A stretch of 64,000 nucleotides of DNA from Candidatus Bathyarchaeia archaeon (lineage in GTDB: Archaea; Thermoproteota; Bathyarchaeia; Bathyarchaeales; DTEX01): the NCBI GenBank assembly GCA_038882715.1, contig JAVZNR010000005.1, positions 1 through 64,000 of the forward strand. The letters run 5' to 3'. Made by a program: the position numbers and the translations under genes. Under the pieces are notes generated by a model, which saw only the letters and a list, made by a program, of their open reading frames with translations, searched no databases and was not told the DNA's origin. Shown piece after piece: positions 16,659 through 25,480 of this stretch (its first letter is position 1; each line of letters begins with the position of its first letter).

Positions 16659-18098
16659 TTAACTTGTTAGCCTACGTATCATTTTTCCCTCTGAATCAAA
16701 TACCTCGATTGCTAGGGCTATAGGTCTCCACGCGTGCGTAGCGCAGCTTAGACACGGGTCGAAAGCGCGGATCACCGCCTCAACTCTATTCAGTAGGCCT
16801 TCGCTTAATCTACCTCCGCTTACATATTTCTTTGCCACCTGCGTTATAGCCATGTTGTATGCGAGGTTATTATGCTCAGTCGCGATTACGAGATTAGCCC
16901 ACTCTATTAAGCCGTGCCTGTTAACCTTATAGTGATGTATAAGCGTGCCCCTAGGGGCCTCAGCGACCCCAACACCCTCGTACCTATTGACGGAGGCCCT
17001 AGCCCAAATATTATCGGAATATGCTTCTGGATCCTCTAAGATTTCCCTAACCTTCTCTATGCAGAACAGTATCTCAATTAACCGCGCGTAATGATATAGC
17101 ATGGTGTTTTGGACAACGCCGTTTTTACCCCACTTCTTAAATTCTTTCAGTTCCTCGTCTGCTAGTGGTGTGCCACATCGTGAAACAATATTAAGTCTCG
17201 CCAGCGGCCCAACCCTATAGACTCCCTTCGGGTAGCCCAGCGGCTTATAGTATGGGAACTTCATATACGACCAGGGTTCAACAGCCTCCCCAATATACTC
17301 ACAATATCTTTTTGGGTCAAGATGATCGCTAATTATTTGCCCTTTATCATCAACGATTCTTATTAGTCCATCGTAATGTTCCAATTCGCCTTTCCGCGTC
17401 ACTAACCCCATATAATATGTTGGGAAGTCTCCAAAGCCCTTGATCTCGTCGCTCATCTTTTCTAAAATCTCTCTAAATCTGGATAGATTTTCGAGAGTTA
17501 TTTTTAGGGCGTCATCATATTCGCTCATGATTCTCTCCGACTTATCCTTTGAGAGCGGCGCCGCAACGCCTCCCGGAACAATCCAGTCGCTTGAATGTAT
17601 CCTTTTGCCAGCCAAATACTCAATTATCTTTTGCCCAAAGGCTCTGAGCTTTATTCCCTGCTTAGCTATCTCCGGATACCTTTCCATCAATCCGAAAATA
17701 TTTCTTTTTGATGGCTCAGAATCCATGCCTAAAAGGAAATCCGGCGAAGAGAGGAAAAAGAAGCTCAGCGCATGCGACTGGATTATCTGCCCCATATGCA
17801 TTAAGCGCCTTAGAAGCTCAGCGGCTCTAGGTATGCTTACAGCCAATATATCGTCGCATGCCTTCACGGACGCTAGAAGATGGCTTACAGGGCATATCCC
17901 GCATGTCCTAGACATTATGCTCGGCATCTCATAGAAGGGACGCCCCTCGCAGAATTTTTCGAAGCCGCGGAAATCCGTTACGTGCAGTCTAGCCTCTCTA
18001 ACGCTTCCATCGTCGGATAGGTGGATTGTCACCTTAGCGTGTCCTTCGATCCTAGTGACTGGCTTTATCTCAATCAGATTGCTTCTTTCCTCAACCAT
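16659..18098 (-). CDS. hoxH: [NiFe] hydrogenase large subunit (HoxH type)
   Basis: 479 residues carrying the Ni-Fe active site. The L1 motif RTCGICP has C66 and C69; the L2 motif DPCLSCATH has C449, C452 and H455. Twenty-four residues follow H455, the length of a C-terminal extension normally removed by a maturation protease. Sequence and gene order point to a group 3 cytoplasmic enzyme, probably NAD-linked group 3d. It overlaps hoxY by 8 bp. No maturation protease or Hyp genes are in the window. Confidence 0.9.
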   Translation of the reverse strand: MVEERSNLIEIKPVTRIEGHAKVTIHLSDDGSVREARLHVTDFRGFEKFCEGRPFYEMPSIMSRTCGICPVSHLLASVKACDDILAVSIPRAAELLRRLMHMGQIIQSHALSFFFLSSPDFLLGMDSEPSKRNIFGLMERYPEIAKQGIKLRAFGQKIIEYLAGKRIHSSDWIVPGGVAAPLSKDKSERIMSEYDDALKITLENLSRFREILEKMSDEIKGFGDFPTYYMGLVTRKGELEHYDGLIRIVDDKGQIISDHLDPKRYCEYIGEAVEPWSYMKFPYYKPLGYPKGVYRVGPLARLNIVSRCGTPLADEELKEFKKWGKNGVVQNTMLYHYARLIEILFCIEKVREILEDPEAYSDNIWARASVNRYEGVGVAEAPRGTLIHHYKVNRHGLIEWANLVIATEHNNLAYNMAITQVAKKYVSGGRLSEGLLNRVEAVIRAFDPCLSCATHAWRPIALAIEVFDSEGKMIRRLTS

Positions 18099-18633
18099 AT
18101 TTTGCTTTACCCTCCATATTCGGCGCTCTACCCGCCAATATTTCGGTTAGAACATAGTTTATGAGGTCTGCTGATGGCGGGCATCCCGGAATAAAATAAT
18201 CGACCTTAACAACTTCATTCAATGGGCATGCGCGCTTTAGCAATTTTGGGACATCGTTTGGGGTCAGCGGGTTAACATCAGTTAATTCTATGTAAGCTCT
18301 GCGGATAATCTCTTCGGAGCCATTATCCAAGGTATTTCTTAATGCGGTCACGTTTCCGGTTACCGCGCAGTCACCTATGGCGATAAGTATTTTTGTGTGT
18401 TCCCTAACAGTCTTGAGTAAGTGTAGCTGCTCCTCGTTTCCAACAGCTCCCTCAACAATAGTCACATCAACGTTCTCTGGGAAATCCTTAACATCCATAA
18501 GCGGGCTGTAAACAAGATTTATCTTTTCAGCAAGATCTATTAGGCGCTCATCTTGATCTAGAAATGACATATGGCACCCTGAGCAGCCGCTAAGCCAGAC
18601 CGTTGCGAAATTAACTTTATTGATTCGGCTCAT
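18091..18633 (-). CDS. hoxY: [NiFe] hydrogenase small subunit (HoxY type)
   Basis: 180 residues, short as in cytoplasmic group 3 hydrogenases. SGCSGCHMSF supplies C17 and C20, and GDCAVTGN plus PGCPPSAD supply the other cysteines of one proximal [4Fe-4S] cluster. There is no Tat signal and no second cluster domain, fitting a soluble enzyme. It passes electrons from HoxH to the HoxEFU diaphorase. The start lies next to the hoxU stop. Confidence 0.9.
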   Translation of the reverse strand: MSRINKVNFATVWLSGCSGCHMSFLDQDERLIDLAEKINLVYSPLMDVKDFPENVDVTIVEGAVGNEEQLHLLKTVREHTKILIAIGDCAVTGNVTALRNTLDNGSEEIIRRAYIELTDVNPLTPNDVPKLLKRACPLNEVVKVDYFIPGCPPSADLINYVLTEILAGRAPNMEGKAKYG

Positions 18634-19341
18634 CTATCTCCGCCTCCTTGAGATTATGAATTGGGCTATATCCTTGTCCTTCGTTTCCGAGATGGGTTTG
18701 TCCCTCACGTATATTGCTCCAACAGGGCATACTCTAGCACACTTACGACACGATGTGCATGATCTAGACGAGCCCCAATCCTCATCCATATCCACAATTA
18801 TCTGCGAGTCTTTACCCCTAGCTTTTATGTCTAAGACATGGACGCCCTCAATCTCATCGCATACTCTAACGCAGCGGGTGCATAAAATGCACCTATTATT
18901 GTCTATAACTAGAAAGTCATGCGTCAAATCTATTTTTTGCCTAGTCCACTCGCGATCGAACCTCAAGTGATCGACGCCAAACTCTTTCGCCAAATCCTGC
19001 AATTCACAATTACCATTAGCGACGCAGACGGCGCATACATGAGGCTTCTCTGAAAGCAGAAGCTCTACCGTCATCTTCCTATATTTCCTCAGCCTCTCAG
19101 AGTCTGTAATGACCTCCATACCGTTGCTGACAGGGGTTGTGCAGGATGGGAAGAGTTTAGGCGAACCCTTAATTTCAACTATGCATAGGCGGCAACTACC
19201 ATAATTACTTAACCCATCTAGATAGCATAACGTTGGAATTCTTATCCCAGCCCTCTTAGCAGCTTCAAGAATTGTTTCTCCCTCGTAGGCAGTAACCTCA
19301 ACACCATTGATCTTCAATTTAACTGTTCCAGCACCACTCAT
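18634..19341 (-). CDS. hoxU: Hydrogenase diaphorase iron-sulfur subunit (HoxU, NuoG N-terminal type)
   Basis: 235 residues. An N-terminal plant-type [2Fe-2S] ferredoxin domain (CYLDGLSNYGSCRLC...SCTTP) is followed by the His-Cys3 [4Fe-4S] site (HVCAVCVANGNC) and two more [4Fe-4S] motifs (CILCTRCVRVC and CTSCRKCARVCPVGA). This is the HoxU/NuoG-N layout that wires the flavin subunit to the hydrogenase module. It abuts hoxF (1-nt gap) and hoxY. Confidence 0.9.
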   Translation of the reverse strand: MSGAGTVKLKINGVEVTAYEGETILEAAKRAGIRIPTLCYLDGLSNYGSCRLCIVEIKGSPKLFPSCTTPVSNGMEVITDSERLRKYRKMTVELLLSEKPHVCAVCVANGNCELQDLAKEFGVDHLRFDREWTRQKIDLTHDFLVIDNNRCILCTRCVRVCDEIEGVHVLDIKARGKDSQIIVDMDEDWGSSRSCTSCRKCARVCPVGAIYVRDKPISETKDKDIAQFIISRRRR

Positions 19342-19342
19342 C

Positions 19343-21004
19343 TCATGGAGCCTCCTTCATAGATACTTGGGACCTAAAACATTTTCCAGCCGGACACCTC
19401 TTATCAAATATATGGGTAATGTATTCATCCCTAAAATAGCGTAAGGTTGTTAAGACCGGGTTCGGGGCTGTTTGTCCTAAACCGCATAGGCTCACATCCC
19501 TCACATACTCGCCCAGCTCGCTCAATATATCTAGGTCCTCTAGGCGCCCCTCGCCCTTCATAATCCTCTCCAGAATATTCCTCATTTTCAGCAATCCAAC
19601 CCTACAGGGAACACATTTACCACACGATTCATCAACGCAGAAGTCCGTGAAGAACCATGCTGTATCAACCATACATGACTCATCATCGATCACGACTATG
19701 CCGCCAGAACCCATTATAGCCCCAGCTTTAGTCAAAGACTCATAATCAATCGAAAGATCAAGCAAGCTTTCAGGCAAGCATCCGCCTGACGGCCCACCGA
19801 CCAGAACAGCCTTAAATCTCCGCCCAGACGGAACCCCACCACCTATCTCGAAAACAACCTCTCTAAGGGTTATTCCCATCGGGACCTCAATAAGCCCCGG
19901 GTTGTTCACTTTACCGGTAAGCGAGAAGCATTTTGTGCCAGTACATTTTGGTGTTCCAATCTTAGCAAACCAGCTTCCACCGTTAAGTATTATGAGCGGA
20001 ACGTTCGCCAGGGTCTCAACATTCTGTATGAGTGTTGGCTTACCCCACAATCCCGATGTCGCTGGGTACGGTGGACGCGGTCTAGGCATTGCTCTGCGCC
20101 CTTCAATAGACGCAAGTATACCGGTCTCCTCACCGGCAACGAATGCGCCTGCACCCAACCTTAACTCAATATCGAAGCTGAACTGCGTTTCAAGAATATT
20201 CTTTCCCATAAGATTCATTGACCTGGCTTGTTTTAAGGCTTCCCTTAAAGTCTGAACCGCTAGCGGATATTCGGCTCTAACATAAATGTAGCCTTTTTCG
20301 GCGCCTACAGCATAGGCGGCTATGGCCATACCCTCAATTATAGCATGGGGATCCGCCTCAGCCAATGTTCTGTTAGCGAATACTCCCGGGTCGCCCTCAT
20401 CCAGGTTCGCTACAACATATTTCGGAGTATTTTTCTCTCTAGCCACGAAATTCCATTTCTGCCCGGTTGGAAAACCCGCGCCTCCGCGCCCCCTTAATCC
20501 GCTTGCAATAACCTCATCTATCACTTCCTTTGGTGTCATCTTTGTCAGGCACTTTATAAGCGCGGAGTATCCGCCAGCCGCTATATAATCCTCTATTTTA
20601 AGCGGGTCTATTTTACCAGCGTTCCTTAGAACAAGCCTAAGCTGCTTCTTAAAGAAGGCCTCATTCGCATAAAGCAGCTCTTTAACAGGTTTCCCGGAAA
20701 CTATGTGGCTTTTCACTATTTCCCTAGCATTCTCCGGCGTAACATTCTGATATAGGTAGCCGCCGGGCTCAATTAAAACTACTGGGCCGACTGAGCATGT
20801 TCCCACGCATCCGGTTCTTGAAACCCTGCATTCGCCCTGAAGCCCAAACTCTTTAATAGCTTCCTCAAACGCTTTAAGAACTTGTAGGGCGCCGAATGGT
20901 AGGCATCCGCTGGAGCAGCAGACGTTTATCCTATACCTATAAGACCTCTGTCTCTCGGCTTCCTCTCTAGCGATTCTCAAAATATCCTCTGGCTTCAAAA
21001 CCAC
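19343..21004 (-). CDS. hoxF: NAD-binding flavoprotein subunit (HoxF/NuoF type)
   Basis: 553 residues. The N-terminal thioredoxin-like [2Fe-2S] domain has CCSSGC and CVGTC (to about residue 110). The FMN/NAD core shows GLRGRGGAGFPTGQKW, ANLDEGDPG and GAGAFVAGEETG, then an SLBB segment and the cluster motif ESCGKCVPCRVG with a later Cys. It exchanges electrons with NAD(H). The C-terminus stops right after CPAGKC, a motif that in electron-bifurcating HydB/HylB-type proteins leads into a double [4Fe-4S] domain; that domain is absent here. Confidence 0.9.
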   Translation of the reverse strand: MVLKPEDILRIAREEAERQRSYRYRINVCCSSGCLPFGALQVLKAFEEAIKEFGLQGECRVSRTGCVGTCSVGPVVLIEPGGYLYQNVTPENAREIVKSHIVSGKPVKELLYANEAFFKKQLRLVLRNAGKIDPLKIEDYIAAGGYSALIKCLTKMTPKEVIDEVIASGLRGRGGAGFPTGQKWNFVAREKNTPKYVVANLDEGDPGVFANRTLAEADPHAIIEGMAIAAYAVGAEKGYIYVRAEYPLAVQTLREALKQARSMNLMGKNILETQFSFDIELRLGAGAFVAGEETGILASIEGRRAMPRPRPPYPATSGLWGKPTLIQNVETLANVPLIILNGGSWFAKIGTPKCTGTKCFSLTGKVNNPGLIEVPMGITLREVVFEIGGGVPSGRRFKAVLVGGPSGGCLPESLLDLSIDYESLTKAGAIMGSGGIVVIDDESCMVDTAWFFTDFCVDESCGKCVPCRVGLLKMRNILERIMKGEGRLEDLDILSELGEYVRDVSLCGLGQTAPNPVLTTLRYFRDEYITHIFDKRCPAGKCFRSQVSMKEAP

Positions 21005-21565
21005 TTATCCCCCAAGAACTTTTCTTATTTTATCCAAAACAACCTCTTTAGTTGCTCTTCCAACAACTTCGTTATCAATAGTTATATTTGGGGCCATGGC
21101 GCATGCGCCAATGCAACGCGTAACAAAAAGTGAGAGCCGTCCATCCGGACTTGAACCGCCGCGCTTAATATTAAATTCTCTCTCAATTGCCGTTATTATC
21201 TCTTCAACACCCTTCACGTAGCATGCTGTCCCCATGCACGCTGAGATAACATGCTCACCGGGCTTCCTAAACTTGAATAAGTGATAAAATGATGCTACGC
21301 CATAAACATGGCTCGGCGGCAGGTTCAGGCGCTCAGCTATATATGTTAGAAGAGGTTTATCGAAGTATCCATAAAGCTCATGTGCCGCATGCAGAACTTC
21401 AAGAAGGGCGCTTTTCTGATAGTTATGCTCTTTTATAATTCTTTCAAGCATTTGTAAGCGCCTATCTTCCTTTAACAAAGGGTTTACCGCCCCGAATAAT
21501 TGTTTTCTAAACGCTTTCTCTTTCTTAAATGAGGTATGACGGGGAGTATTTAAGGGTTTACTCAT
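21005..21565 (-). CDS. hoxE: Thioredoxin-like [2Fe-2S] subunit (HoxE/NuoE type)
   Basis: 186 residues. A helical N-terminus (LLEVLHAAHELYGYFDKPLL region) precedes the thioredoxin-like [2Fe-2S] fold with CMGTAC and, about 40 residues on, CIGAC. It is the first gene of hoxEFUYH, and all five genes abut or overlap, implying one transcript. A TATA-like CACTTAAAT about 25 nt upstream suggests a near-leaderless operon start. Confidence 0.9.
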   Translation of the reverse strand: MSKPLNTPRHTSFKKEKAFRKQLFGAVNPLLKEDRRLQMLERIIKEHNYQKSALLEVLHAAHELYGYFDKPLLTYIAERLNLPPSHVYGVASFYHLFKFRKPGEHVISACMGTACYVKGVEEIITAIEREFNIKRGGSSPDGRLSLFVTRCIGACAMAPNITIDNEVVGRATKEVVLDKIRKVLGG

Positions 21566-21608: not shown

Positions 21609-21983
21609 TCATGGAACGTGAGGTTTAACGGCAACCTTAACTTGACCATCCGGGCTTATGGCGATTAAACCTATAGGTAAATTTATAACGCTCAAAATTT
21701 TCTCCAGTTTCCTTAAATATGGATAATCTTCTGGAACCGCGATATACGTCGGTACAAACCCGTTTTCAACGCAATGAACTATACATTGACCCAGATTTCT
21801 ATAACAATCAGATAACTCAAAACCACATCTGGTCATTACACAGTACGCCATCCTATACCCTATGCTATATCCGTCCTCAATCTCGTAGACTTCAATTCTA
21901 TCCTCCTCAGAGCGAACAATGCTTGTTGGGAACAATGAGGACAACCATTTAGATAAAACCTCAGAGACATTTTCACTAACCAT
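21609..21983 (-). CDS. Small cysteine-rich protein, unknown
   Basis: 124 residues, family not recognised. No signal peptide or membrane helix. A central cluster of five cysteines (within YCVMTRCGFELSDCYRNLGQ and the next few residues; spacings 5, 6, 6 and 3) could bind metal or a cluster. It ends 43 bp upstream of hoxE on the same strand and could be co-transcribed with the hydrogenase, but a separate hox promoter is also possible. Confidence 0.6.
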   Translation of the reverse strand: MVSENVSEVLSKWLSSLFPTSIVRSEEDRIEVYEIEDGYSIGYRMAYCVMTRCGFELSDCYRNLGQCIVHCVENGFVPTYIAVPEDYPYLRKLEKILSVINLPIGLIAISPDGQVKVAVKPHVP

Positions 21984-22059: not shown

Positions 22060-23040
22060 TCAAGATTTTGGAGCCCCGCGTACAGAAAGCAAAATTATGG
22101 AAGAAGCTATGATGAAAACCGCTAAAAATATAGTTATCTGTGATAAGATAGCGAGGATAAATACTCCATATAAACTGGAAACCAGTTTCATTATGACGCT
22201 TAAAGAAATGAAGCCTAAACATAAGCCAAATGTTAATTTAAAGCTAGCCTCCTTTACTCGTCTGGTCGCTGAAGAGCCGATCTGCACACCGATCGAGGAA
22301 CCGACAAAGATTAGAATTGCCAATATAAAATCAACGTTCCCCTTGAGCGTATGAGTTAAAGACGCGTACGCGCAGCTCACCAGTACTCCGAAAATGCATG
22401 TTCCAGCGGCAACCGACGGCTTACAGCCAACTATATAGATTAGCAGCGGAACCAGTATAAAACCTCCACCAGCGCCTAGAAAACCAGCTGATAAACCGCC
22501 AATAAAGCCGATCGCTGCCACCATCCATACTGATATTGGCTTTGCATCAGGCTGCGACGTCGTGATCAGCGGCGGGATTTTAAGCTTATGAATCCTAAAC
22601 CATAAAGGCTTCTTTTCGGGACTCTTTTCCCGACCAGGGTTTAAGCCCTCATAAACCATGTATGTGGAGATTAGAATTAAAATTAGGATATAAGCCAGAC
22701 TCACCGCGAAATTCATGAACTGCGTGTTGATCCTCTTAAGTTGCTCAATTGATTGCGCCCCAATTTCTGTTCCGAGAACTGAGGAAAGAGCAATAATTAA
22801 GCCTATTTTCACCTCCACGTTGCCTAAGCGCTTATGCCTTAACGATGCAACAATAGATGACATAAATATCTCGGTAACGCTTGTCCCGACAGCCGTGCTG
22901 GCTGGAAAACCTAGGCTAATTAGAAACGGTGTGAGAATGAAGCCGCCGCCGAAACCGAAGAAACCGGATAGAATCCCTACGAGAAAGCCCATAGCGATTA
23001 AGCAGAGACTTACACCTACATTTAAATCCAGTACCAACAT
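22060..23040 (-). CDS. TSUP-family (TauE/SafE) permease
   Basis: 326 residues, eight or so membrane segments in two homologous halves. Each half opens with the glycine-rich TSUP motif: GILSGFFGFGGGFILTPFL and GLSAGFLGAGGGFILVPLL. Members carry sulfite, sulfonates or other small organic anions, usually outward. The long loop between the halves (about residues 125-165) is charged. Substrate cannot be inferred from the neighbours. Confidence 0.88.
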   Translation of the reverse strand: MLVLDLNVGVSLCLIAMGFLVGILSGFFGFGGGFILTPFLISLGFPASTAVGTSVTEIFMSSIVASLRHKRLGNVEVKIGLIIALSSVLGTEIGAQSIEQLKRINTQFMNFAVSLAYILILILISTYMVYEGLNPGREKSPEKKPLWFRIHKLKIPPLITTSQPDAKPISVWMVAAIGFIGGLSAGFLGAGGGFILVPLLIYIVGCKPSVAAGTCIFGVLVSCAYASLTHTLKGNVDFILAILIFVGSSIGVQIGSSATRRVKEASFKLTFGLCLGFISLSVIMKLVSSLYGVFILAILSQITIFLAVFIIASSIILLSVRGAPKS

Positions 23041-23127: not shown

Positions 23128-23721
23128 TTACTCGCGCAGCCTACCCTCTAGCTTATTTACCCACTTATTATATTCTCTGGCGCCCAATAAATCGTTCAAT
23201 TCCTCCTCAAGAATCACGGAGTTCTTGGGTTTGATTTCAAGAATCCAGCCCTTGCCATACGGGTCTTCGTTTATTAGATGTGGTTCGTTCTTTAAGTCCT
23301 CGTTAACCTTAACTATTTTGCCGCTAACTGGCGCATAGATATCGAACATGAACATCCATGTTTCAACGACACCTATCGGCTCCATTTTATTAACCTCTTT
23401 TCCAGCCGGCTCAGTCATAACGTGGGCTATGCCTTTCAAGTGCCTAGCAGCGTAATCAGATAGCCCGACGCGTATATTTCCTTCAGGAGTTATTTGAGCC
23501 CATGTATGCTTCGGAGTGTATAGCAACTGTTCTTTAATGGTCGCTAGGACCTCCTTTCTTTTCTCCGCTGGGACCCCTCTGGTGCGCATTATTTCTTCAA
23601 GGCGTAATCTTATAGCCTCTGAAACGAACTCCGATATACTTCTATACTTTCCAGTTTTAACGGCCTTTTCAACCTCATCTATTAATTCTTGCCTTATACT
23701 CACGGTCTTCCATTTTGGCAT
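23128..23721 (-). CDS. Ribbon-helix-helix regulator fused to a GcvH-like lipoyl domain lacking the lipoyl lysine
   Basis: 197 residues with two domains. Residues 1-45 resemble a CopG-type ribbon-helix-helix DNA-binding domain (WKTVSIRQELIDEVEKAV, then YRSISEFVSEAIRLRLEE). Residues 66-197 match glycine-cleavage H protein along most of its length (YTPKHTWA, VGLSDYAARHLKG, DIYAPVSGKIVKVN, DPYGKGWILEI). The lipoylated lysine of the ESVKA motif is replaced: ETWMF puts M123 there. A lipoyl cofactor therefore cannot be attached at the usual site. A sensor-regulator role is my inference. A GGAGGCG ribosome binding site supports the start. Confidence 0.8.
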   Translation of the reverse strand: MPKWKTVSIRQELIDEVEKAVKTGKYRSISEFVSEAIRLRLEEIMRTRGVPAEKRKEVLATIKEQLLYTPKHTWAQITPEGNIRVGLSDYAARHLKGIAHVMTEPAGKEVNKMEPIGVVETWMFMFDIYAPVSGKIVKVNEDLKNEPHLINEDPYGKGWILEIKPKNSVILEEELNDLLGAREYNKWVNKLEGRLRE

Positions 23722-23744
23722 ATACTACGCCTCCACTACACTTG

Positions 23745-23782
23745 AGTGATATATAATGCAAGCGAAAGATATATATTTAATG
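23745..23782. promoter_or_regulatory. Divergent TATA boxes between RHH-GcvH-like and PhoU-like genes
   Basis: Minus-strand TTATATATC (about 23748-23757) lies some 30 nt before the RHH-GcvH-like start. Plus-strand GATATATATTTAATG (about 23767-23781) lies 50-60 nt before the PhoU-like TTG start. The two elements are nearly back to back, so binding by one product could affect both genes. Confidence 0.5.
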
Positions 23783-23830
23783 CAAATAAAATAATGATTG
23801 GTAAATATCGTATATTCCGGGTGAGCTGGG

Positions 23831-24913
23831 TTGGAGAGTAGAAAGCTACAGAAGGTTGGCCGCTCAACAATAACAGTTTCGCTTCCAAATAAATGGATAA
23901 AGGAGAATAACATTAAACCCGGCGATTTAGTCTTCATTTTGCCGGAGAAAGATGGAGCATTGAGGATAGTTCCAAGCCAGTCCATGCGCCAAGAAGAAGT
24001 TGAGGAAGAATACGTGATTAACGCTGATGCCTGCGATGAGCATGGTATGCTTGAGAGGATAATCGTTGGCGGCTATATTCTTGGGCGAAACGTCATCAGA
24101 ATCGTATCACCAAACCGTATAGAGAAAGAACACATAGATGAAGTCCGGAGGATCGTACGTAAGCTTATTGGCTTAGGCATACTTGAGGAAACATCGAACA
24201 GCGTATTGCTGCAGTGCTCATTAGACCCAACGAGATTTAAGATAGACATGTTGGCTAGAAGATTAACCCTTGTTGTTTCGACAATACTTTCTGAGGCTAT
24301 GCAAGCGCTCTTAGAGAATAATGAGGCTTTAGCTAAGGAGGCTATTGAGCGTGAAGAAGAAGCTGACACAATTTACTACTTGGCTACTCGTTTACTTCTC
24401 TATGTGCAGAGAAAACCTGCTTTAGCCGAGCAAATGGGTATAACGGATATAATTCTTATACCGGCTTTACGCTTAATATTCCAGTCTTTAGAGTTAATAG
24501 GCGATTACTCTGAGGATATAGCGAAAAAGGTGCTGGCCCTCAAAACATATAGAAATAGGATAAGCGAAGACATGATAAAGAAGATTTATGAGTTGGGTGA
24601 GGCGGTTCAGACTGTTTTCCAGAGGGCTATTGACTGCATCTTTACGGGCGATATTAAGCTCGCTAACAGCGTGCTTGAGATGAAAAGATCTCTTAAAGAT
24701 GGAGCTGAGAGACTGATGCATGAGCTGCCAGAGATACCATACTTGAGGGCCATAGTTTCAGGTTTAGCCAATATAGCGAACGTCGGAGGGATAAGCGCCG
24801 ATATAGCGATAAATAAGGCGTTGCTGGAGCACAGTAAGCATATTGAGGGCATAGTTGAGATAGTCAAGCATGTTTTAGTGCAACCTAAACCATCAAGATT
24901 TGAGTTAAGATAG
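23831..24913 (+). CDS. PhoU-family regulator with AbrB-type DNA-binding N-terminus
   Basis: 360 residues. The first 50 residues form a SpoVT/AbrB-like swapped hairpin (KLQKVGRSTITVSLPNKW, then GDLVFILPEKDG). The rest is helical with two PhoU-type three-helix repeats containing the acidic metal-binding pattern (EREEEADTIYYLATRLL; then LELIGDYSEDIAKKV). Archaeal members are annotated as phosphate-uptake regulators. The start is TTG at 23831 behind GGTGAGCTGGG. No pst genes are nearby, so a phosphate link is by family only. Confidence 0.82.
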   Translation: MESRKLQKVGRSTITVSLPNKWIKENNIKPGDLVFILPEKDGALRIVPSQSMRQEEVEEEYVINADACDEHGMLERIIVGGYILGRNVIRIVSPNRIEKEHIDEVRRIVRKLIGLGILEETSNSVLLQCSLDPTRFKIDMLARRLTLVVSTILSEAMQALLENNEALAKEAIEREEEADTIYYLATRLLLYVQRKPALAEQMGITDIILIPALRLIFQSLELIGDYSEDIAKKVLALKTYRNRISEDMIKKIYELGEAVQTVFQRAIDCIFTGDIKLANSVLEMKRSLKDGAERLMHELPEIPYLRAIVSGLANIANVGGISADIAINKALLEHSKHIEGIVEIVKHVLVQPKPSRFELR

Positions 24914-25093: not shown

Positions 25094-25480
25094 ATGGGCA
25101 ATAGTTTTGAGGAGGCGTTATCGAATATAAACGTTTTCTGCTCAGTTTTGGTTAAAAAGATAATTGAGGATGAAGAACCGCAAATAAAGCCCGAACCTAT
25201 CGAAAGTATGTTAAAGAAAAAGTATACAGTTGAGGTTTACGGAGACTGTGATAAATGGGAGGAACCCCTAGTAGATGTTTTTGAAGATGAAAAACAAGTG
25301 AAGATCCTCATGCGCTTCTCATTCGGAGGACAGGAAATCGAGTTTCATCCCTGTGAAGATTACGTGGAGATATGGGTTAATAAGGGCCAAAGGTTTAAGC
25401 TTCCAATAGATCCTCCAAACATGAATAAAACAACTGTAAAACGTAATAACCAAGTATTAGAAATAACAGTACAAAAGTGA
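25094..25480 (+). CDS. Hsp20/alpha-crystallin-fold protein
   Basis: 128 residues. After a helical N-terminus, residues 55-127 follow the Hsp20 beta-sandwich pattern: PLVDVFEDEKQVKILMRF, then a short variable part, RFKLPIDPP and NNQVLEITVQK. The terminal I-x-I oligomerisation motif of chaperone-type Hsp20 is not evident, so it could be a GvpH-like or CS-domain protein rather than a typical small heat-shock protein. A TATA-like AAAAATATATG precedes it at about 25050. It converges on the GH32 gene. Confidence 0.6.
   Translation: MGNSFEEALSNINVFCSVLVKKIIEDEEPQIKPEPIESMLKKKYTVEVYGDCDKWEEPLVDVFEDEKQVKILMRFSFGGQEIEFHPCEDYVEIWVNKGQRFKLPIDPPNMNKTTVKRNNQVLEITVQK

Follow-up and report, generated by a model that had tools for sequence, protein, structure and literature searches.

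A ribbon-helix-helix protein with a lysine-less H-protein fold leads hydrogenase and Hdr operons in Bathyarchaeia and is a probable transcription regulator

What may be the role of a protein in which a ribbon-helix-helix (RHH) head is joined to the fold of the glycine cleavage H protein (GcvH), when methionine stands at the position of the lipoylated lysine? The gene that raises this question (hereafter RHH-GcvH) lies in the window, the whole stretch of 64,000 nucleotides analysed here, which derives from a member of the Bathyarchaeia, archaea that are abundant but uncultured and about whose gene regulation very little is known. The gene and its parts are as follows.

23128..23721, minus strand: RHH-GcvH fusion gene (lysine to methionine), 197 aa, ATG at 23721; kept in 41 Bathyarchaeia genomes
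23593..23706, minus strand: RHH head (CopG/NikR-like), residues 6-43; Pfam RHH_1 and profile match to the NikR RHH
Within 23593..23706, minus strand: candidate DNA-contact strand T6-S8-R10; T6 invariant, R10 conserved in at least 90%
23155..23526, minus strand: GcvH domain, residues 66-189; Pfam GCV_H, AF2 model and Foldseek
23353..23355, minus strand: codon 123, ATG (Met), at the lipoylated-lysine position; hairpin tip ETWMFMFD

Domains and predicted fold of the fusion protein

The original prediction, made from the letters alone, described an RHH head joined to a GcvH-like domain, with Met123 replacing the lipoyl lysine and the rest of the fold well kept. All of this was recovered. Pfam GCV_H aligns with residues 66-189 of the window protein with E=7.2e-31 (107 bits; cut-off, 22.2), and RHH_1 aligns with residues 6-43 with a value of 6.6e-4 and 20.0 bits, marginally under its cut-off of 20.5. 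RHH_1 is matched at E<=0.01 by 14 aligned family members (best value, 4.3e-6), and a heads-only profile finds the RHH region of NikR with E=0.002; a single ribosomal-protein match, which we take to be spurious, ranks higher. Judging from these profiles, the RHH assignment of the window protein's head is weaker than that of the GcvH part but real. Codon 123 is ATG in the context ETWMFMFDIYAPVSG, and the methionine that it encodes stands in the local context VVETWMFMFDIYAPVSGK.

In the AF2 model (mean pLDDT of 82.6, mostly >85 in the GcvH part), the RHH helices at residues 11-22 and 29-47 show the helix-helix topology and are followed by a linker helix (52-63) and then by the GcvH fold. The RHH strand (residues 1-10), which needs a dimer partner, is predicted with low confidence in this monomer. 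When the model was compared with known structures by Foldseek, its GcvH part superposed on the lipoylated E. coli H-protein 3ab9 (rmsd 1.2 A; TM 0.93, by target length). In the predicted fold W-M-F occupies the turn 122-124 between two strands, at the lipoyl-lysine site. A ligand pocket, which the original prediction had also considered, was not established.

Loss of the lipoyl lysine across the family

One scan covered one genome per species and another 257 Bathyarchaeia genomes. About 50 copies or gene pieces of RHH-GcvH were found in 41 of the 257, all in the window's own order; 398 genomes sampled from the whole phylum gave no member outside that order with E<=1e-42, and in the one-per-species scan full-length relatives occur in Bathyarchaeota only. 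In that same scan every copy read carries the tip ETWMFMFD, except a tandem neighbour with ETWWFVHD. Lysine is present at column 123 in none of the RHH-GcvH copies readable there. M-type copies have Met almost always and Leu once, and W-type copies have Trp, Leu or Pro, as read by alignment around small insertions. Because the lysine is absent in every copy read at the column, its loss is more than chance, and conservation rules out an isolated mutation or a sequencing error at codon 123.

The domain keeps much of ordinary GcvH (PF01597): H72, W74, G86, E120, P131, G134, N140 and W159 are all retained or nearly so. It differs at the hairpin, where the tip reads ETWMFMFD instead of ESVKAVSD and the lipoylated lysine of the ESVKAxSD motif is missing; T121, W122, M123, F124 and F126 replace S, V, K, A and S of lysine-bearing GcvH. 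The position of pea Glu14, an arm contact in ordinary H proteins, is occupied by Thr73 in the window protein when the residues are mapped by alignment. In alignment A2, residues T6, S28, S30, F32 and S34-R40 of the head are invariant, as are W74, D89, G107, G117, E120, T121, W122, F124, D127, P131 and G134 of the GcvH part; the protein is under constraint.

In a tree of 67 H domains, the 35 lysine-less domains form one clade, split at 100/100 from the 32 lysine-bearing domains (all 32 with the lysine kept), and the W-type copies form a clade of their own (100/98), the tree having 125 columns only and weak inner forks. Several families have RHH-GcvH genes in tandem, with the W-copy first and the M-copy second (L018, L111, L112, L118-L122), an arrangement that suggests heterodimers. 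Since lysine-less GcvH genes without an RHH head also exist, in other gene contexts (L027:7917-8408, with Met at the site, and L127:238-720, with Asn), lysine loss and RHH fusion are separable.

Operon context and the divergent promoter

RHH-GcvH is the first gene of a same-strand run that extends, with short gaps or overlaps, to position 16659 of the window. The original prediction lacked what is our main clue to its function: throughout the window's order the gene stands, nearly always, at the head of hydrogenase/Hdr operons. The run and its divergent neighbour comprise these features.

23831..24913, plus strand: AbrB/MazE-type DNA-binding domain fused to PhoU domains (AbrB-PhoU), the divergent neighbour; Pfam, and synteny kept in nearly all relatives
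22060..23040, minus strand: permease of the TauE/SafE family, in the window's family the second operon gene; Pfam and synteny
21609..21983, minus strand: 124-aa protein with no Pfam match, kept between the TauE and hydrogenase genes in the window's family; synteny
21005..21565, minus strand: NuoE-like [2Fe-2S] subunit; Pfam
19343..21004, minus strand: NuoF-like FMN/NAD(P)-binding subunit; Pfam
18634..19341, minus strand: NuoG-like/HoxU-like iron-sulfur subunit; Pfam
18091..18633, minus strand: [NiFe] hydrogenase small subunit; Pfam Oxidored_q6
16659..18098, minus strand: [NiFe] hydrogenase large subunit with CGIC and DPCLSCATH motifs; Pfam NiFeSe_Hases and sequence

Most relatives have another set of genes, in the order GltD-like, FlpD-wHTH, HdrA (1000 residues), MvhD, HdrC, HdrB, MvhG and MvhA; in 31 of the 41 genomes RHH-GcvH is the gene directly upstream of GltD-like and FlpD-wHTH-HdrA (one contig ends within GltD). 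Both arrangements are found within the window's genus: RHH-GcvH and TauE are followed by the NuoEFG-hydrogenase genes in the window's own genome and two others (G000, G170 and G175), and by GltD-Hdr-Mvh genes in G173 and G167. RHH-GcvH, TauE and AbrB-PhoU are constant there and the downstream electron-transfer module is swapped. A constant first gene and divergent neighbour next to a changing operon content is what is expected of a cis-linked regulator, not of a subunit of one complex. Strict co-occurrence of RHH-GcvH with hydrogenases was not found: members of the genus and family without RHH-GcvH still have other [NiFe] hydrogenases, and RHH-GcvH is consequently not required for hydrogenases in general. 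An antitoxin function, hinted at by the ParD-like character of the RHH, was discarded, no toxin gene being recognised alongside and the neighbours being hydrogenase genes. On the far side of AbrB-PhoU, positions 25094-25480 of the window encode a 128-aa protein without a significant Pfam match, relatives of which are present at that place in most loci compared.

RHH-GcvH and AbrB-PhoU share a promoter region of 109 bp, and this regulatory DNA between the two genes is conserved. It contains the following elements.

23722..23830, no strand assigned: divergent promoter region, with conserved blocks across relatives
Within 23722..23830: AGGAGG-like ribosome site
23743-23755: block TATATATCACTCA
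About 23769-23775: TATA-like TATATAT
About 23801-23807: block TATTTAC

We aligned 25 distinct upstream regions. In 23 of them the start codon is preceded, at a distance of 33-36 bp, by the motif TATATATC[AC], against a mean of 0.15 and a maximum of 2 after shuffling, a comparison that overstates significance to some degree because related promoters are not independent draws. In nearly all 25 promoters the TATA-like TATATAT is found 20-21 bp further upstream. If that TATATAT is the TATA box, an identification favoured by the AGGAGG-like leader, transcription would start near the TATATATCA block. The TATTTAC block lies about 86 bp upstream and is probably part of the divergent gene's own promoter. 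The conserved blocks could be core promoter elements of the two divergent genes rather than an operator. A palindromic operator was sought by eye: inverted repeats of the TAGTA-TT-TACTA type and of the type GATATATA/TATATATC are present in some promoters, but not in all, and they overlap the TATA-like elements, and the candidate was dropped. A wider regulon was likewise rejected. The full TATATATCACTCA motif has one exact site in the window's own genome, which is the window promoter, and one site with a single mismatch (G000:C1:248235); its occurring once argues against a regulon beyond the RHH-GcvH operon, at least with the same site.

A regulator reading and its alternatives

Taking these data together, we favour, with a probability of about 0.6, the reading that RHH-GcvH regulates the transcription of hydrogen/electron-bifurcation operons as a one-component system, in which the lysine-less H fold serves for sensing or docking. 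The RHH head would dimerise and bind the short promoter common to RHH-GcvH and AbrB-PhoU, and the protein would control its own operon (autoregulation), which encodes a hydrogen-handling electron-transfer machine: an NAD(P)-linked [NiFe] hydrogenase in the window, and in most relatives a bifurcating HdrABC-MvhADG complex together with a GltD-like NAD(P) flavoprotein. Lipoate would no longer be carried by the C-terminal GcvH fold, whose lipoyl hairpin would now end in a W-(M/W)-F tip, fixed and hydrophobic, and the fold would recognise, probably, a protein or redox partner of hydrogen/lipoyl metabolism and so alter DNA binding. We infer DNA binding by the head, for which there are the conserved promoter region and the conserved strand residues, and we also infer the regulatory target and the signal. 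The original prediction had seen here a carrier turned into a regulatory module, with the divergent promoter beside the PhoU-like gene as its possible target. Clade structure, operon-leading position and a conserved common promoter all fit that view, in which DNA binding, sensing and the operator itself remain putative. What the H fold might read is a more tentative matter: possibly, rather than probably, it responds to the state or abundance either of the hydrogenase/Hdr complex or of a lipoyl-GcvH redox system, and the hydrogen-metabolism operon is switched accordingly, in some lineages by a W-copy/M-copy heterodimer.

The constant co-location of RHH-GcvH with hdr/mvh genes may also be read as the mark of a subunit, accessory or for assembly, of the Hdr/hydrogenase complexes; its H fold would dock like LbpA in sulfur oxidisers, and the RHH would serve only for dimerisation. 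LbpA, of the sHdr pathway, is the nearest Hdr-linked relative of RHH-GcvH, both being GcvH-like proteins genetically tied to Hdr genes. However, the lysine is kept in all 95 LbpA aligned, and two cysteines in most (PMC6067878), whereas RHH-GcvH lacks the lysine, is almost free of cysteine and bears an RHH head. The hdr genes linked to it in 31 of the 41 genomes are of the HdrABC-MvhADG type. As several operons of the window's genus contain RHH-GcvH without any Hdr subunit, and the strand and helix residues of the RHH expected at the DNA are conserved, we consider a subunit role unlikely. Slightly more doubtful, in our opinion, is a sensor of lipoate status, that is, a mimic of the apo-H-protein that binds lipoate ligase or dihydrolipoamide dehydrogenase and whose DNA binding reports the supply of true lipoyl-GcvH; it would possibly also be a form of the regulator reading favoured above. 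In favour of such a sensor, the one lysine-bearing GcvH gene of the window's own genome overlaps a gene for a dihydrolipoamide-dehydrogenase-type pyridine-nucleotide-disulphide oxidoreductase (L138:7948-9712, G000:C3), and lipoate ligase is encoded as two neighbouring genes, for a C-terminal-domain protein and a catalytic protein (L139:6750-7824, G000:C2). Since GcvT and GcvP have no match in this genome (95% complete), its lipoyl-GcvH probably serves redox chemistry outside glycine cleavage, a role that would make a regulator built on a lysine-less relative more sensible. The GcvH residues E120, D127, P131 and G134 are moreover retained in RHH-GcvH. Against such a sensor, the hairpin read by the ligase is radically altered (V/I to W, K to M, A to F and S to F), and the RHH-GcvH gene is not linked to lipoate genes.

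A NikR-type nickel sensor, with an RHH head and a metal-binding C-terminal domain encoded before a nickel enzyme, has in its favour the general layout (RHH, then a C-terminal sensor domain), the fact that NikR is the best regulator match of the head profile, and candidate targets that are, like those of NikR, nickel enzymes, here [NiFe] hydrogenases. We give it very little credence: the C-terminal domain has the GCV_H fold and not the ACT-like nickel-binding one, no NikR-like cysteine/histidine metal site is recognisable, almost all M-type members lack cysteine, the conserved His72 is also found in ordinary GcvH, and His94 is not universal (78% in the M-type, mostly Gln in the W-type). That the gene is simply decaying, a random fusion with chance loss of the lysine that defines a carrier, has practically no likelihood left; conservation refutes it, with about 50 copies in one order, among which the tip ETW.F is conserved and tandem pairs preserve an old W/M duplication.

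The regulator reading has a partial parallel in the sirtuin-macrodomain operons, where an H fold, GcvH-L, is used in a regulatory setting and not in glycine cleavage (PMC4518038). Its structure 5a35 is among the Foldseek matches of the RHH-GcvH model. GcvH-L differs in having no DNA-binding head, and it is lipoylated on the lysine. One-component regulators usually sense through a pocket for a small molecule or a metal, and we call RHH-GcvH a putative regulator of the RHH kind whose C-terminal module is of a new type. A genetic switch for hydrogen metabolism has probably arisen here from a protein that once carried a cofactor; more tentatively, a carrier of a covalent cofactor may have turned into a pseudo-carrier sensor. 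In the open-access papers searched we found no report of RHH-GcvH or of lysine-less H-protein regulators, nor of an H-protein or lipoyl-type carrier fold reused as a sensor upon losing its attachment lysine. RHH-GcvH provides a named candidate regulator for the electron-bifurcating hydrogenase/Hdr operons of Bathyarchaeia and makes a concrete test possible, with one protein and one 109-bp promoter.

The hdr-mvh operons encode a further protein with a DNA-binding domain. FlpD-wHTH (L009:10436-11197 and relatives) is an FlpD/MvhD-like protein with a C-terminal winged helix-turn-helix, possibly a second redox-linked DNA-binding protein. It is present in 31 of the 41 genomes with RHH-GcvH and adjoins it in 30 of them, including two where a contig break intervenes or a gene is split; in the remaining genome the contig ends inside GltD. 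Many genomes that lack RHH-GcvH have FlpD-wHTH as well, and the FlpD-wHTH gene is duplicated in G063 and G069.
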